Source of the DNA: Candidatus Terraquivivens yellowstonensis
Lineage (GTDB): Archaea > Thermoproteota > Nitrososphaeria_A > Caldarchaeales > Wolframiiraptoraceae
Length of the DNA: 37,543 bases
NCBI GenBank assembly: GCA_023539445.1
Contig: JAKCEW010000008.1
Span: 1 to 37,543 of the forward strand
Direction: 5' to 3'
A model generated the notes under the pieces. It saw nothing but the letters and a program-made list of their open reading frames with translations. It had not been told where the DNA came from and ran no database searches. A program made the translations under genes and the position numbers. This document shows, piece after piece, positions 18,874 to 25,886 of the stretch (positions are counted from its first letter, which is position 1; every line of letters starts with the position of its first letter).

Positions 18874-19419
18874 TCAGACAATCACTCCACTTTCCTTGGC
18901 GTACCTAACGCCTTCCATGAAGATCCTCTCATTAAGCTCTACAGCTTTTGGGAACGTCTTTTTTATCACATTAAGCAGGGACTCATGCTTCACGATTTTG
19001 GTAATCTCTGAGAAAGCTCCGAGCATCATGATGTTCGCGACTAACCTCCTTCCGAGTTGCTCGGCTACCTTGGTAGCGGGAAGCCCCACCATATTTATTC
19101 CCTTAACCTTAGACACATCCACAAGCCCGCTGTCGTATATGAGTAGCTTTTTCGGTGCCCTGCCTTCATTAAAACTCCTATCCAAACCCTCCTGAGACAT
19201 AACAATCAGTACATCCGGTTTTGTAATTAGTGGAAAGTCTATTGGCTCGTCCGATATCACAACGTCAGCTCTCGACCAGCCGCCGATTTGTTCCGGCCCA
19301 TAGGCCACGGTTAACGCAGCATCCTTTCCCTCCAAAACCGCGGCCTCCCCGAGTATCTGTCCGCCCCTGATTATGCCCTGACCGCCGAAACCAAACAGGC
19401 TTATGTCCCACCTGACCAT
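18874..19419 (-). CDS. korC: 2-oxoacid:ferredoxin oxidoreductase, gamma subunit (first enzyme)
   Basis: 181-residue gamma domain with the N-terminal glycine motif FGFGGQGIIRGGQILGEAA and YGPEQIGGWSRADVVISDEPID, both typical of 2-oxoglutarate-type (Kor) gamma subunits. It helps bind CoA and assemble the complex. It lies one base beyond the beta-subunit stop, so the genes are tightly coupled. Substrate cannot be fixed from sequence; 2-oxoglutarate is the best family-based guess. Confidence 0.9.
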   Translation of the reverse strand: MVRWDISLFGFGGQGIIRGGQILGEAAVLEGKDAALTVAYGPEQIGGWSRADVVISDEPIDFPLITKPDVLIVMSQEGLDRSFNEGRAPKKLLIYDSGLVDVSKVKGINMVGLPATKVAEQLGRRLVANIMMLGAFSEITKIVKHESLLNVIKKTFPKAVELNERIFMEGVRYAKESGVIV

Positions 19420-19420
19420 A

Positions 19421-20272
19421 CTACTTCCTCTCCTCCCTGACGGACTCTACCAATTTTCTCCACATGTCGTTATATGATGGTTTTTCTTTATGAACGAAGT
19501 TTCCTACGATTATCGGCTTGCCGGACCTCAGGTCTATATCAACTGTCCTAAGGTCGGCTTCATGGTTTATGACGCTCATCTTCTTAAAATATCTCATCAT
19601 CTCGAGGCCCGTTGGAAAGTTATTATCCCTGCCGTAATGTGTCGGGCATGGTGATAGAACCTCTATGAACGCAAGGCCATTTACTTTCATTGCCTTAAGC
19701 ATCGCATCAATCAATTGATTTACATGGAAAGTCGTCCACCTTGCGACGAAAGGAGCGCCAAGCGAGGCGACCAGAAGAGGTAGGTTGAAGGGATTGTCTA
19801 TCGTACCGTAAGGAGCGGAAGTTGCCTTGGAGCCTGCGGGTGTTGTGGCCCCATGCTGTCCGCCAGTCATACCGTAAATAAAGTTGTTGATTAGCACGAC
19901 GTTGATGTCGTGGTTCCTCCTGATAGTATGTATGAAGTGGTTTCCGCCTATAGTAACTAAGTCACCGTCACCGGCTATTACCGTTATCTCAAGTTCTGGC
20001 TTCACGAGGTTCATACCTATCGCGAAAGGTAGTGCTCTACCATGCGTGGTATGGTAAGAGTCGATGTTCACGTAACCCGGAAGCCTTGAGGAGCAGCCTA
20101 TACCAGACACGACTACGTGCCTTTCGGGTGGTATGCCGCTCCTTTTTATCGCCTTGATATAACACTTCATCACTATTCCTATCCCACAACCAGGACACCA
20201 TATGTGTGGCATCCTGTCTGTCCTTATCAGATCGTCATCAGGGTGCTCCGTAGCTAAAACTTCCTTAGGCAT
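19421..20272 (-). CDS. korB: 2-oxoacid:ferredoxin oxidoreductase, beta subunit (first enzyme)
   Basis: TPP-binding subunit. HIWCPGCGIGIVM near residues 23-35 carries cysteines of the proximal 4Fe-4S cluster, and AGDGDLVTIGGNHFIHTIRRN followed by NNFIYGMTGGQ is the TPP/Mg binding region. 283 residues. The start is set at ATG 20272 by GGTGA just upstream; an open extension to 20332 overlaps the alpha gene and lacks family similarity. It couples to the alpha subunit gene with a 4-base gap. Confidence 0.93.
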   Translation of the reverse strand: MPKEVLATEHPDDDLIRTDRMPHIWCPGCGIGIVMKCYIKAIKRSGIPPERHVVVSGIGCSSRLPGYVNIDSYHTTHGRALPFAIGMNLVKPELEITVIAGDGDLVTIGGNHFIHTIRRNHDINVVLINNFIYGMTGGQHGATTPAGSKATSAPYGTIDNPFNLPLLVASLGAPFVARWTTFHVNQLIDAMLKAMKVNGLAFIEVLSPCPTHYGRDNNFPTGLEMMRYFKKMSVINHEADLRTVDIDLRSGKPIIVGNFVHKEKPSYNDMWRKLVESVREERK

Positions 20273-20276
20273 ACTC

Positions 20277-21425
20277 TCACCTCGAGACGGCCCTAATCGT
20301 ATCGAGTATGACGTCCGGTGTCGGCACCGCACCGGGAGCCCAACTTAAACCGACAACAAGACACTCAGCAGCCTCTTTTACTGGATGAATCATCTGACCC
20401 ATATTTATCTCAGGAACTATGATCACCTTAGCCTGCTCGCTTACCTCCCTGACGATCTCGTCCGGAAACGGCCATGCTGTTATTAGCCTCAGCATGCCAG
20501 CCTTGATCCCTTCGGACCTTGCCATCTTCACTGCTTGATATGCCGGCCTGGATGTTATACCGTAGGTTATTATGATCGTGTCAGCATCATCCAGCATGAA
20601 ACGCTCCACCTCCCATATCTTCTTAGCGTTGTTTCTGACTTTCGATACCAGATGCTTTACACACCAAGTCGAAACCTCGTGCGTATAATACGGGTAACCC
20701 CTTTCGTCGTGTGTCAGACCAGTGACGTGTACCCTGTATCCCATACCAGCCAGCGCCATAGGCGGTACCTCATACCTTGAGTCAAACGGCTTAAAGTCTG
20801 GAATGCTCGGCGGAACGTTAGGCAACTTCCTATTCACTATCTTTATCTCCTCATGCGGAGGTACAACTAATGAGCCATACATATGGCTGATAACTTGGTC
20901 GGACATCAAGATAACTGGTTGTCTGTATTCTTCTGATGTATTGAAGGCTTTTATCGTAAGATCGAACATCTCTTGAACGCTGTTCGGGACGTATACTATG
21001 GCCTCATAATCTCCATGCGAGCCCCACTTAGCCTGCATCATGTCGCCTTGACCGACCAGCGTCGGTATGCCAGTGCTCGGACCTCCTCTCTGGACGTTCA
21101 CGATGACGCAAGGCGTTTCAGTCATCATACCAAATCCTATGCCCTCTTGCATGAGCGAAAAACCGGGGCCGGACGTAGCTGTCATAGACTTTGCGCCGGC
21201 ATTCGACGCGCCCAGTACCGCCATTATGCTGGCTATCTCATCTTCCATCTGTATGAAGTGGCCGCCGACCTGCGGAAGCCTGTAGCTCATCCACTCTAAA
21301 ATCTCGCTGGATGGTGTTATTGGGTATCCGGCAAAAAACCTGCAACCCGCTATTAGAGCGGCTTCAGCGCAGGCGATGTTTCCCTGCATGAAGTACTTTC
21401 CTGGAGGGAGCAGACCTTCCGTCAT
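20277..21425 (-). CDS. korA: 2-oxoacid:ferredoxin oxidoreductase, alpha subunit (first enzyme)
   Basis: 382-residue pyrimidine-domain subunit. GKYFMQGNIACAEAALIAGCRFFAGYPITPSSEI is the conserved alpha N-terminus, with YPITPSSE contacting substrate and TPP. The transketolase-like C-terminal domain includes IIITYGITSRPAYQAV and IIVPEINMGQM. The ATG at 21425 (or 21428, overlapping the ferredoxin stop) follows GAGGTG. The open frame to 21476 runs into the upstream gene and is not needed. The Kor-like rather than Por-like N-terminus distinguishes it from the second enzyme at 23752. Confidence 0.93.
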   Translation of the reverse strand: MTEGLLPPGKYFMQGNIACAEAALIAGCRFFAGYPITPSSEILEWMSYRLPQVGGHFIQMEDEIASIMAVLGASNAGAKSMTATSGPGFSLMQEGIGFGMMTETPCVIVNVQRGGPSTGIPTLVGQGDMMQAKWGSHGDYEAIVYVPNSVQEMFDLTIKAFNTSEEYRQPVILMSDQVISHMYGSLVVPPHEEIKIVNRKLPNVPPSIPDFKPFDSRYEVPPMALAGMGYRVHVTGLTHDERGYPYYTHEVSTWCVKHLVSKVRNNAKKIWEVERFMLDDADTIIITYGITSRPAYQAVKMARSEGIKAGMLRLITAWPFPDEIVREVSEQAKVIIVPEINMGQMIHPVKEAAECLVVGLSWAPGAVPTPDVILDTIRAVSR

Positions 21426-21712
21426 CATTCCACCTCTTTTATAAATATCGCAAAATCTGGACAGAGCAACTCGCACATCTTACAAGCGGTGCAAGAATCC
21501 TCCTTACCGGGTTTGACTCTTGGGTAATGAAAACCCTTGTAGTTTATATTCTCCGACTTTTCTAGGACTGATTGTGGACAGAACTCAATACAATACATAC
21601 ATTCCTTACATCTGTTGGGTATAATATAGACGATGCCCCTCCGACGGCCCTTAGGGACCCCTACGCTCGGAGCCCCCTGCTCCAAAACCGGGCTTTCTTG
21701 ATGTTCGTACAA
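21425..21712 (-). CDS. korD: 2-oxoacid:ferredoxin oxidoreductase, ferredoxin-like delta subunit (first enzyme)
   Basis: 95 residues with two 4Fe-4S motifs: CKECMYCIEFCP and CTACKMCELLCP. It would pass electrons from the TPP subunit to ferredoxin. The start TTG at 21712 heads the leftward D-A-B-C operon. An A/T-rich region at about 21724-21760 supplies the promoter, shared back to back with the putative regulator. The N-terminal 20 residues before the first strand are variable and low in similarity. Confidence 0.9.
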   Translation of the reverse strand: MYEHQESPVLEQGAPSVGVPKGRRRGIVYIIPNRCKECMYCIEFCPQSVLEKSENINYKGFHYPRVKPGKEDSCTACKMCELLCPDFAIFIKEVE

Positions 21713-21776
21713 AATTGTGTTCCCAATAATTTTATCTGCAATTTCCTACTAAAAAATTTAATTTGTCAAATATACG
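21713..21776. promoter_or_regulatory. Divergent promoter between first oxidoreductase operon and putative regulator
   Basis: 64 very A/T-rich bases. TTTAATTT-type elements occur on both strands near 21748-21762, about 20-27 bases before the ATG at 21777 and about 40 before the TTG at 21712. The inverted repeat at 21788-21808 follows directly. Confidence 0.5.
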
Positions 21777-22823
21777 ATGTTAAGCTTATATTACACAGCG
21801 TGTAATATTGTATTGAAATTGAGGAAAAATAGCGCATTTAGAGGACTTTTTGTCCTTCTCGAGAACTTTTTCCCCCTTCAGTGGAGCGAAAACGCATACA
21901 TCTACAACCCACCCTTCACATTATTCAAGATGAATAACTCGGTAATCCTTGGTTTAGATCCTCTTTACGACCCGGCCGTAGAGCATGCGCTAGGCAATAT
22001 TGGTGTAAAACTTAGCCAAGATAACTCTTACTTTTTGTTAATACCCCCCGTTCAAAAAACCCTCATGATGTTTGACTGGTTTGTAAGGCGTAGCTGGCAC
22101 AAAGCGGAATACACCGTAGCTTGGTCTATACTAAACTTGATGAAGGGCGCGCCGGAGTGTAGCCTAAACATCGAGCAGATATGCGAGCGGAGCGGTCTCG
22201 ATCAGATAACATGTATGAAGGTTCTAAGCTCATTCGGCATTAAAATGAAAGATGATGATTCAATCACCGTCCCGAGGGGAAAAATCTCATCGATAATCGA
22301 GGAGCTAGTACGCGCATTGCCGAGCTGGATCGAAGAGAGCGTCATGGACTTTATTTGCTCTAATGTAAACGTTTCCGCATCAGATGTCCACTCCTACCTA
22401 TCGTACTATGGCATAAGCCCGAGCATGACGTATAAGATACTAAGGAAGCTAAAGTCCGAAGGCTGCATTAAAGTGGTGAGACATGTAAGGGTGAAGTCGA
22501 AGGGACCTATGCGTGAGCTAATGTCTTCCGATTGTAGAAACTGCTTCTTCGGTTACTCATCCTCCATCAACTGCTTTAAATCATGTTTCTACCAGCTTGA
22601 GAAGTTGGTAGAAAAACTGATTGGTAGGCCGATGAAGGTGCATGAAGTTGAAGAACTCTATCGAGAGATTAGCAAGCTACCTTTTAGCGAGAAAACATTA
22701 AGGTCTGTTAACAAGGCATTGATACTTGCACTACAGTTCTCAGAGATGTCAAAAGAAAAGAATGTCGCAACAGTCCTTCGCAAATTGGGTGCAACTTTAG
22801 ACTTTAAAATGCTCGGTATATAG
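21777..22823 (+). CDS. Unrecognised protein with HTH-like segments and a four-cysteine cluster (putative regulator)
   Basis: 348 residues from the ATG at 21777; TTG starts at 21813/21819 would shorten it by 12-14. I do not recognise the family. Two winged-helix-like segments are visible: about 110-165 (SLNIEQICERSGLDQITCMKVLSS) and about 183-243 (SASDVHSYLSYYGISPSMTY, then a basic KVVRHVRVKSKG wing). Next come four cysteines, C253-x2-C256-x9-C266-x3-C270, able to bind an Fe-S cluster or zinc, and a helical C-terminus that may dimerise. No membrane segments. It sits alone between two oppositely directed ferredoxin oxidoreductase operons. A redox- or metabolite-sensing regulator is inferred from architecture and position. 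Confidence 0.7.
   Translation: MLSLYYTACNIVLKLRKNSAFRGLFVLLENFFPLQWSENAYIYNPPFTLFKMNNSVILGLDPLYDPAVEHALGNIGVKLSQDNSYFLLIPPVQKTLMMFDWFVRRSWHKAEYTVAWSILNLMKGAPECSLNIEQICERSGLDQITCMKVLSSFGIKMKDDDSITVPRGKISSIIEELVRALPSWIEESVMDFICSNVNVSASDVHSYLSYYGISPSMTYKILRKLKSEGCIKVVRHVRVKSKGPMRELMSSDCRNCFFGYSSSINCFKSCFYQLEKLVEKLIGRPMKVHEVEELYREISKLPFSEKTLRSVNKALILALQFSEMSKEKNVATVLRKLGATLDFKMLGI
21788..21808. repeat. Inverted repeat, 9-base arms, 3-base spacer (candidate operator)
   Basis: Left arm ATATTACAC (21788-21796), spacer AGC, right arm GTGTAATAT (21800-21808); the arms are perfect complements. If the adjacent gene starts at the TTG at 21813 or 21819 rather than the ATG at 21777, the repeat is a non-coding site just before the start codon, as expected for autoregulation. 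Confidence 0.6.
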
Positions 22824-22912: not shown

Positions 22913-23476
22913 TTGAAAAAGTTAATTGAAGTGAGATTTCATGGAAGAGGAGGCCAAGGTGTTGTTACCGCCGCAAGGCTTTTAGCTGAGGCTTGTCTTC
23001 TGGAAAACAAGTACTCGCTTTCGTTCCCTGAATTCGGTCCTGAGCGCTCCGGTGCACCTGTAAGGGCCTACGTCAGAATATCCGACGAGCCCATAGATAC
23101 TAGGTCATTAGTTTACGATCCGGAGATAATTATAGCAATAGACCCGAAGATAGCCTCTTCTGTTGAAATACTGGCTGGTTTGGATGACGAGGGCATCGTC
23201 GTCATAAACTCGAAGAACGCTAGTGATGCCCTCTTGAAGGCCCTATCCTCTAAACCGCGAGCAAAGTTATTCTATGTGGATGCAAGGGGTATAGCGCTCT
23301 CTTTGGGTGACGCTAGGTTCGAAAACTCAGCGATTCTTGGGGCCACCGCCAAGGCTACGGGGATCGTATCTTTAGGTTCGCTTGAATCTGTGCTAAGAAC
23401 AAGGTTTAAAGGGACAGTCCTCGAAAATAACCTTAAAGCCATGCAGTTAGGATATGATAAAGTGGGGCAGGCATAA
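22913..23476 (+). CDS. porC: Pyruvate/2-oxoacid:ferredoxin oxidoreductase, gamma subunit (second enzyme)
   Basis: 187 residues with EVRFHGRGGQGVVTAARLLAEA at the N-terminus and SFPEFGPERSGAPVRAYVRIS, the signature of Por/Vor-type gamma subunits and distinct from the Kor-type gamma at 18874. Start TTG at 22913. First gene of the rightward C-D-A-B operon; its stop overlaps the ATG of the next gene by one base. Pyruvate is the likeliest substrate, with branched-chain 2-oxoacids as the alternative. Confidence 0.9.
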   Translation: MKKLIEVRFHGRGGQGVVTAARLLAEACLLENKYSLSFPEFGPERSGAPVRAYVRISDEPIDTRSLVYDPEIIIAIDPKIASSVEILAGLDDEGIVVINSKNASDALLKALSSKPRAKLFYVDARGIALSLGDARFENSAILGATAKATGIVSLGSLESVLRTRFKGTVLENNLKAMQLGYDKVGQA

Positions 23477-23748
23477 TGGCAGAGGTTGAAAAAATTATAC
23501 TTCCCGGAGGCATTATAGACAGACCGGGATCCACTCTTGATTACAAAACAGGAACTTGGAGGGTTAAGAAGCCAGTAGTGGACTTGAATAAGTGCACAGG
23601 TTGCCTCCTATGTTGGATATACTGTCCTGAGCCAGCCATTAGGAAGAGGGATGATGGCAAGATTGAGTTCGACTACGATTACTGCAAAGGCTGCGGCATA
23701 TGTTCCGTTGAGTGCCCAACTAAGGCCATAAAAATGGAGGAGGAGTGA
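23476..23748 (+). CDS. porD: Pyruvate/2-oxoacid:ferredoxin oxidoreductase, delta (2x4Fe-4S) subunit
   Basis: 90 residues with two 4Fe-4S motifs: CTGCLLCWIYCPEP and CKGCGICSVECPTKAI. The N-terminal DYKTGTWRVKKPVVD segment is typical of PorD. It carries electrons from the catalytic subunits to ferredoxin. It overlaps the gamma stop (TAATG) and is followed after 3 bases by alpha. Confidence 0.93.
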   Translation: MAEVEKIILPGGIIDRPGSTLDYKTGTWRVKKPVVDLNKCTGCLLCWIYCPEPAIRKRDDGKIEFDYDYCKGCGICSVECPTKAIKMEEE

Positions 23749-23751
23749 GGA

Positions 23752-24951
23752 ATGATGTCGCTTCTTCAACCCAAGACCCTTAAGCCGATGTCAACATCAG
23801 AGGCAATAGCATACGCTGTTAAGCAAGCAAACGTCGACGTCATAGCCGCCTACCCGATCACACCACAGACGATAATAGTTGAGCGGCTTAGCGAATATGT
23901 CAACAATGGTGAGCTCGACGCCGAGTACGTTGCCGTCGAATCAGAACACTCTGCGATGTCAGCATGTGTTGCTGCAAGCCTCACTGGTGCAAGGGTCTTC
24001 ACATCAACCGCCAGTCAAGGACTCGCGCTAATGCACGAGGTCCTCTACGTAGCTTCTGGTTTAAGGTGTCCGATCGTCATGGCTATTGCGAATAGGGCAC
24101 TGTCTGCACCAATAAACATTCATTGCGACCACTCCGATGTGATGGGCTCGAGAGATGCTGGATGGGTACACATATTTGTAGAGAATGCTCAACAAGCATA
24201 CGATAGGATCTTTCAAGCCTTCAGGCTGGCAGAGGACAATGACATATTACTTCCAGTAGGAGTAAATCTTGACGGTTTCTTCCTCTCGCATGCTGTGGAA
24301 GGGGTTGCGACAATATCAGACAGCGAGGCGGCATTGTTCCTTCCACCCAGAAAAGCAAAGTATTACATCGATTCCTCGATGCCAATGACTTTTGGTGCCT
24401 TCGCGCTACCAGATTGGTACTTCGAGATAAAGTATCAAGTAGTTGAGGCGATGGAGAAGGTTCCGAAGAAGCTAGCAGAGGTTGAGGAGGCCTACTATAA
24501 AATGACCGGAAGGATGTATGGCCATGTCGGTGCCTACAGGACAGAGGATGCCGATGTTTGTTTGATATGCGCAGGCTCAGCGGCAGCCACAGCAAAATTT
24601 TCCGTGGCAAGGATGAGGGAGAAGGGCATTAAGGCAGGGCTTCTAAGCATTAGACTCTTCAGGCCCTTCCCGGTCGAAAGCATACTCCCCCACGTGAAGG
24701 ATGCGAAAGCCTTGATTGTGATGGACAGGGCGATGAGTCCCGGTGCACCGTCTGCACCGATAGGCCAGGACATAAAAACCATGCTATACGACGCTGGTCT
24801 CAACATACCGGTCGCTAATTTCGTCTACGGCCTTGGAGGCAGAGACATCTCTGCCGCAGAGTTTGAGAGCATAACCACGAAAGTGATAGAAGACCTGAAG
24901 GCAGGAAGGCCTATAGAAAGAGGTGTAAAGTATTGGGGGGTGAGGATATGA
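23752..24951 (+). CDS. porA: Pyruvate/2-oxoacid:ferredoxin oxidoreductase, alpha subunit
   Basis: 399 residues. AYPITPQTIIVERLSEYV (Por-type alpha motif), VAVESEHSAMSACVAASLTGARVFTSTASQGLALMHE, and a C-terminal transketolase-like domain with LICAGSAAATAKFSVARMREKG and RAMSPGAPSAPIGQDI. Either of the consecutive ATGs at 23752 and 23755 may be used; GAGTGAGG lies just before. It ends overlapping the start of the beta subunit (ATGA). Confidence 0.94.
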   Translation: MMSLLQPKTLKPMSTSEAIAYAVKQANVDVIAAYPITPQTIIVERLSEYVNNGELDAEYVAVESEHSAMSACVAASLTGARVFTSTASQGLALMHEVLYVASGLRCPIVMAIANRALSAPINIHCDHSDVMGSRDAGWVHIFVENAQQAYDRIFQAFRLAEDNDILLPVGVNLDGFFLSHAVEGVATISDSEAALFLPPRKAKYYIDSSMPMTFGAFALPDWYFEIKYQVVEAMEKVPKKLAEVEEAYYKMTGRMYGHVGAYRTEDADVCLICAGSAAATAKFSVARMREKGIKAGLLSIRLFRPFPVESILPHVKDAKALIVMDRAMSPGAPSAPIGQDIKTMLYDAGLNIPVANFVYGLGGRDISAAEFESITTKVIEDLKAGRPIERGVKYWGVRI

Positions 24952-25886
24952 TGTCGGTAAGTGAAATTAAATCAATAAAGGAACTTTATGGTTTAGACCT
25001 AATAGCTCCGGGTCATAGAGCTTGCGCTGGTTGCGGCGCTCTCGTAGGCGTGAGGCAGATACTGTTGGCCTCCAAGAGACCTCTTATCGTGGTGAATGCC
25101 ACAAGCTGCTTAGAGGTAACAAGCACACCGTATCCGCAGACGATGTGGAAGGTTCCTTGGGTCCACCTGCTGTTCGAGAATGCAGCCGCTGCCGCCTCTG
25201 GTATAGAAGCCGCGCTAAAGGTCCTTTCTAGAAAATACGGCCGTCAGGAGCACTACATCATAGCCTTCGGCGGCGATGGCGGTACGTTTGACATAGGAAT
25301 ACAAGCGCTTTCTGGAGCGCTCGAAAGGGGCCATAGATTCCTTTACGTATGTTACGACAACGAAGCATACATGAACACGGGCATACAGAGGTCTGGCGCG
25401 ACACCTTTAGGAGCGGCCACAACGACGTCACCTGTGGGCGCAAGAATCGTTGGAAAGCAGCAACAAAAGAAAGACCTAATGGAGATCGTTGTAGCCCATA
25501 AGATACCGTACGCAGCCACGGCCTCGCCATCGCACTGGAAAGACCTTGTGAACAAGGTAAGGAAGGCACAGAGTTACGACGGCCCGTCCTTCATCCATCT
25601 TATAGCAACGTGCACCAGAGGATGGTACTTCGACCCAAGCGAGTCAATAAAAGTAGCGAGGTTAGCGGTAGAGACGAGGTATTGGCCGCTCTACGAGGTG
25701 GAGAACGGAAGATACAGAATAACCAACCCAGTCCCGAATCCTAAGCCCTTGGAAGAATTCTTGAAAGTGCAGAGAAGGCTTAGCCACCTGCTACTGCCAG
25801 AGAATGCCGACCTACTTGAAAAGCTGAAGGCTTACGTAAACGAAAGATGGGAGAGGCTCAATAAACTCTCCACTTGCTTCGCCTAA
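24948..25886 (+). CDS. porB: Pyruvate/2-oxoacid:ferredoxin oxidoreductase, beta subunit
   Basis: 312-residue TPP-binding subunit. PGHRACAGCGALVGVRQ holds the first cluster cysteines, NATSCLEVTSTPYP follows, and FGGDGGTFDIGIQALSGALERGH with CYDNEAYMNTGIQRSG is the TPP/Mg motif. The late cysteine in ATCTRGW completes the cluster ligands. The start is set at ATG 24948 by GGTGA-GGAT-ATG; an upstream TTG at 24933 is in the ribosome binding site region. Last gene of the operon; a T-rich tract follows. Confidence 0.94.
   Translation: MMSVSEIKSIKELYGLDLIAPGHRACAGCGALVGVRQILLASKRPLIVVNATSCLEVTSTPYPQTMWKVPWVHLLFENAAAAASGIEAALKVLSRKYGRQEHYIIAFGGDGGTFDIGIQALSGALERGHRFLYVCYDNEAYMNTGIQRSGATPLGAATTTSPVGARIVGKQQQKKDLMEIVVAHKIPYAATASPSHWKDLVNKVRKAQSYDGPSFIHLIATCTRGWYFDPSESIKVARLAVETRYWPLYEVENGRYRITNPVPNPKPLEEFLKVQRRLSHLLLPENADLLEKLKAYVNERWERLNKLSTCFA

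Follow-up and report, generated by a model that had tools for sequence, protein, structure and literature searches.

The locus and its gene model

We analysed a 37,543-nt stretch of contig JAKCEW010000008.1 (hereafter the window) from Candidatus Terraquivivens yellowstonensis, a hot-spring member of the order Caldarchaeales (formerly Aigarchaeota) whose 1.16-Mb genome is 96% complete. Its genus relatives include Candidatus Terraquivivens tengchongensis and Ca. T. ruidianensis, and the genomes compared are draft assemblies. Open reading frame and NCBIfam calls confirmed the arrangement described in the initial annotation, in which one gene, here called the regulator gene, lies between a leftward Kor-type and a rightward Por-type operon; korA was assigned by NF006412 and porD by NF040684, both above cut-off. 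The locus comprises the following features:

18874..21712, minus strand: KorD-type ferredoxin-korA-korB-korC operon, the likely target (NCBIfam; linkage)
21785..21792, plus strand: TATA-like CTTATATT, overlapped by the left arm of the palindrome and some 25 bases ahead of the TTG start
21788..21808, no strand: palindrome ATATTACAC-AGC-GTGTAATAT, candidate operator, with perfect 9-base arms and partly kept in four congeners
21813..22823, plus strand: regulator gene, TTG start at 21813 and stop at 22823, 336 aa (homologue alignment and predicted fold)
22913..25886, plus strand: porC-porD-porA-porB operon, pyruvate:ferredoxin oxidoreductase, adjacent but probably not the universal target (NCBIfam)

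A longer reading frame (21777-22823) would give a 348-aa product from the first ATG at 21777, but the 15 aligned homologues begin at the TTG at 21813, and the longer frame is probably not the actual gene. The alignment thus makes the palindrome non-coding, a possibility that had been raised from the position of the TTG starts.

Predicted fold and family assignment

To describe the protein we used an AlphaFold2 model built with 15 homologues (mean pLDDT 85), which consists of two winged-helix units followed by a four-helix C-terminal part. The corresponding segments of the gene, together with the codons of the invariant cysteines, are:

22104..22277, plus strand: first winged-helix domain, residues about 98-155 (AlphaFold2 H-E-H-H-E, pLDDT mostly >90)
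22326..22529, plus strand: second winged-helix domain, residues about 172-239 (AlphaFold2, Foldseek; weak TrmB/HTH_24 profile matches)
22356..22358, plus strand: invariant C182 codon (C194 of the 348-aa form), where helix 1 of the second winged helix ends (alignment)
22533..22574, plus strand: invariant C241-x2-C244-x9-C254, directly after the wing (alignment)
22563..22799, plus strand: C-terminal four-helix part, residues about 251-329 (AlphaFold2)

The model and the Foldseek matches bear out the two winged-helix-like segments that had been noticed in the sequence. Searches against Pfam and NCBIfam profiles brought the protein to no family cut-off: the closest Pfam family, TrmB (PF01978), scored 19.1-19.3 bits against a cut-off of 25.6, and Rrf2 (PF02082) 13.2 bits against 30. 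A profile search of PDB sequences returned chance-level matches only. With the whole model, Foldseek found generic tandem winged-helix proteins, ScpB being among the top matches, and none below an E-value of 0.001. The C-terminal half alone matched PH1932, an archaeal ArsR homologue, with an E-value of 3e-5, and MarR/PadR regulators at about 1e-3. The family is unnamed and is covered by none of the Pfam, NCBIfam or PDB entries searched. In the second winged helix, recognition helix and wing (Y-K...L-K...R...G-P-M-R-E) are among the best-conserved stretches of the alignment, which is the pattern expected for a DNA-binding surface. The protein is probably DNA-binding, and the four-helix C-terminal part is a possible dimerisation region.

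Four invariant cysteines

Residues C182, C241, C244 and C254 are invariant in 16 of 16 sequences, namely the 15 aligned homologues and a further member, L080. Members from beyond the genus are just 21-29% identical to the window protein, yet keep all four. The initial annotation had pointed to C253-x2-C256-x9-C266-x3-C270 in the longer numbering. This pattern is present and its C253, C256 and C266 are conserved; C270 (C258 of the 336-aa protein), however, is replaced in all homologues, the fourth conserved residue being C194 (C182) instead. By the topology of the fold, helix 1 of a winged helix ends beside the point where the last wing strand ends, which should make C182 a neighbour of C241 and C244. 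As a set, the four cysteines would be enough to hold a single Fe-S cluster or a single zinc ion.

Distribution and linkage to kor

A single-sequence search of the genome contigs found nothing; an alignment-based search gave 14 loci. The family occurs in 15 of the 44 Caldarchaeales genomes, with one further member (L080) on a contig labelled Nitrososphaerales, and no additional true member was seen among 398 genomes sampled across the phylum. Extra matches in G284, G291 and G326 were dismissed as partial and weak, and the two extra matches inspected, L046 and L048, had neither the cysteine motif nor linkage to kor.

The gene accompanies one clade of KorA. The clade of the window's KorA is found in 14 of the 44 genomes, all 14 of which carry the regulator, as compared with one (G007) of the 30 genomes without that clade (Fisher p about 1e-10, not corrected for phylogeny). 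At every one of the 15 loci with this kor clade the regulator is divergent from the kor ferredoxin gene, the Ca. Pelearchaeum locus being divided by a contig break; a link of homologues to a ferredoxin oxidoreductase operon had been anticipated. Two genomes whose KorA is more distant, at about 50% identity, have no regulator. In phylogenetic trees, KorA and the regulator fall into the same three main clades, with several long branches on the regulator side, consistent with joint inheritance of the two proteins. The predicted winged-helix domains, the conserved cysteines (three of the four first named) and the oxidoreductase linkage, on whose absence the initial annotation would have been given up, were all found.

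The por genes behave differently. They occur in 36 of the 44 genomes irrespective of the regulator, 21 of these having none, so por is no predictor of its presence. The regulator adjoins por in Terraquivivens, Geocrenenecus (where por is convergent with it) and Pelearchaeum; in the Calditenuaceae it lies at kor and por is located elsewhere.

In the one genome that has the regulator but not this kor clade, G007 (Ca. Benthortus), the gene (L025:5402-6388) stands directly after a tRNA-like sequence, away from por.

The kor operon of relatives and a natural deletion

The kor operon is accompanied by a full-length hdrA2-like gene in 10 of the 14 genomes with this KorA clade; the product in G003 has an FlpD domain and 1139 aa. 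Where the flank was read further, the operon continues with hdrB/C-like, etfA and etfB genes. Its extended form is found at:

L119:12318-19199, L120:144-9016, L121:166-9270 and L080:1-7830: kor operon extended by FlpD-fused hdrA2, hdrB/C-like, etfA and etfB

We regard KOR-Hdr-Etf as a putative electron-furcating module. The window genome and three congeners have korDABC alone and retain the regulator, indicating that it tracks the kor core and not the hdr-etf extension.

One congener, G004, has por and the genes that flank the locus, while hdr, kor and the regulator are missing together. Between its DUF359 gene and porC (L122:7927-8980) there remain just a broken etfB, the tail of etfA and a decayed fragment of a small cysteine protein. 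These remnants mark a deletion that took hdr, kor and the regulator and spared por. Together with the phyletic pattern, this co-loss suggests that the regulator serves kor.

The small cysteine protein has about 100 aa, the pattern C-x2-C...C...C with C-x2-C...H-x2-H at the C-terminus, and no match in Pfam. Its gene lies after the regulator or beside por in 11 genomes (e.g., L016:7172-7480, L020:5613-5933 and L123:3371-3670), with one further weak match, and is absent from the window genome, where por comes straight after the regulator.

Candidate operator and promoter

The perfect 9-base-arm inverted repeat that had been reported before the gene was confirmed. Perfect arms of this length arose in 30 of 2000 dinucleotide shuffles (1.5%) of the 100-base AT-rich intergenic region. 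A genome-wide check gave no second match with two or fewer mismatches in the 1.16 Mb, and at three mismatches the pattern was no commoner across the whole genome than a reversed control. In four congeners the position is kept and the symmetry is partial, the arms matching at 6-8 of 9 positions; the stretch TTATATT is invariant across the five species. Among these species 82% of cells pair, vs. 11-60% for slid pairings, and covariation was no better than in shuffles. In other families of the order the palindromes upstream of the regulator differ from that of the window, which was not seen there. TCCAATAT was found upstream in Geocrenenecus and Calditenuaceae; it is absent from the window's promoter. 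No inverted repeat precedes por in the window.

The TATA-like element may serve as the promoter of the regulator gene. As the palindrome overlaps it, self-repression is the simplest reading; the same palindrome also sits upstream of the divergent kor promoter.

A probable dedicated regulator of kor

The linkage, the co-occurrence, the co-loss with kor in G004 and the far wider occurrence of por make it most likely that the regulator is dedicated to kor and does not balance the two operons. We put the probability that the protein is a local regulator of kor at about 0.8. The fuller version, which adds Fe-S or redox sensing and self-repression, we favour with less assurance. Against it stand the imperfect keeping of the palindrome in congeners and its absence from other families, as well as G007, which has the gene but not this kor clade. 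The regulator's target would be the divergent ferredoxin-korABC operon, in most relatives the longer kor-hdrA2-hdrBC-etfAB. A dimer would grip DNA through its winged-helix domains and, once bound to the palindrome, block the regulator's own promoter; from its position upstream of the kor promoter the same complex could help or hinder kor transcription. If C182 and C241/C244/C254 meet as the fold topology predicts, they may form one metal or thiol site. An Fe-S cluster or a redox-switchable thiol site seems somewhat more likely here than structural zinc, and a redox response of the regulator is plausible. Such a site could make DNA binding depend on redox, oxygen or Fe-S status, and synthesis of the Fe-S-rich, oxygen-sensitive KOR would thereby be matched to conditions. 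A more specific proposal, tentative and short of an even chance, is that the family represents new archaeal Fe-S transcription factors, in which a cluster on the helix-1 cysteine and the three post-wing cysteines of the same winged helix would tie the grip on DNA to cluster state, and which would be dedicated to a possibly electron-furcating kor-HdrA2-HdrBC-EtfAB operon.

The nearest competitor is a kor winged-helix regulator with a structural zinc site, since four cysteines that include a CxxC pair could hold zinc just as well as Fe-S. The signal would then be a metabolite (a 2-oxoacid or a CoA ester) read by the N- or C-terminal domain; residues 1-97 at the N-terminus and the helices at the C-terminus, both unassigned, could bind a ligand. 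We consider this possible but rather doubtful: KOR contains Fe-S and is sensitive to oxygen, and in its anaerobic-type setting sensors based on Fe-S or thiols are common. This is an argument from context. The initial annotation had instead proposed a redox regulator that balances the two ferredoxin-reducing pathways, which would act on both the kor and por promoters. Adjacency to por in three genera speaks for it, but the gene follows KOR (14/14) and not POR (36/44, 21 without the gene), por is non-adjacent in Calditenuaceae, G004 kept por and lost the regulator, and por in the window has no inverted repeat before it. That proposal now looks improbable.

A KOR assembly or maturation factor, using its winged helices for protein contacts with no role in transcription, would explain why the gene is so closely tied to a single enzyme. 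Some winged helices do bind proteins, and ScpB is one such top match of the whole model. The divergent orientation, the promoter palindrome, the conserved basic wing residues and the DNA-binding regulators found as best domain matches argue against such a factor, which we judge less probable still. Least likely of all is a general promoter role through kinship with TFE-beta / RPC39, a basal factor that combines a winged helix with 4Fe-4S. The regulator shares tandem winged helices and a four-cysteine cluster with this group, and Foldseek linked it weakly to subunits of RNA polymerase III and to TFIIE. The TFE-beta ligands C92, C95, C101 and C112, however, are spaced C-x2-C-x5-C-x10-C (PMC4495717), vs. 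C-x58-C-x2-C-x9-C in the regulator. Moreover, PF05158 has no match at the regulator gene in the window's genome (other loci match weakly), and the distribution within the order is patchy and operon-linked, unlike that of a basal factor. The kinship was rejected on the absent PF05158 match and the different cysteine spacing.

Comparison with known regulators

By analogy, the proposed kor regulator would work most like SurR or OxsR, and by profile, domain layout and cysteine pattern it belongs to neither. SurR of the Thermococcales is a redox-active cysteine winged-helix regulator of ferredoxin-linked energy metabolism that controls its own gene (PMC12162507). The regulator resembles it as an archaeal winged-helix protein associated with ferredoxin-linked metabolism, its own redox activity being putative. 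The CxxC of SurR, however, lies in an N-terminal winged helix, whereas the conserved CxxC described here (C241, C244) lies beyond the wing of the second one; SurR recognises GTTn3AAC-type sites, from which the candidate site of the regulator differs, and the two proteins have no sequence match. OxsR is a thiol-based archaeal regulator (PMC9426492). Likeness to OxsR and the TrmB family (PF01978) is seen in the regulator's best Pfam match, which falls in the TrmB winged helix and below the cut-off, but OxsR has a single winged helix and one sensing cysteine (C24), as compared with two winged helices and four cysteines.

Closest among solved structures to the C-terminal half is the ArsR-like PH1932 of Pyrococcus horikoshii (PDB 2cwe/1uly), although identity is 13%, overall superposition is poor (rmsd 15) and one winged helix is compared. 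Regulators of the Rrf2 type (IscR, NsrR, RirA) carry cysteines near a winged helix, and the state of their cluster controls DNA binding. The cysteines of the regulator are likewise close to a winged helix, but differ in spacing and are accompanied by tandem winged helices.

Beyond the Thermococcales, methanogens and haloarchaea, only a few regulators of ferredoxin-linked metabolism have, to our knowledge, been described in archaea. In the parts of the Caldarchaeales and Hdr/Etf literature accessible to us, mostly outside subscription papers, neither the regulator nor the kor-hdr-etf operon was found described. Should redox or Fe-S status be its signal, the regulator would offer a compact means of switching a 2-oxoacid:ferredoxin oxidoreductase in an order with few cultured members. 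The gene also flags an unusual operon joining KOR to Hdr and Etf subunits. Downstream of etfB in G003 lies a 284-aa open reading frame (L119:11247-12101) that matches nothing in Pfam or NCBIfam and may encode a further HTH protein.
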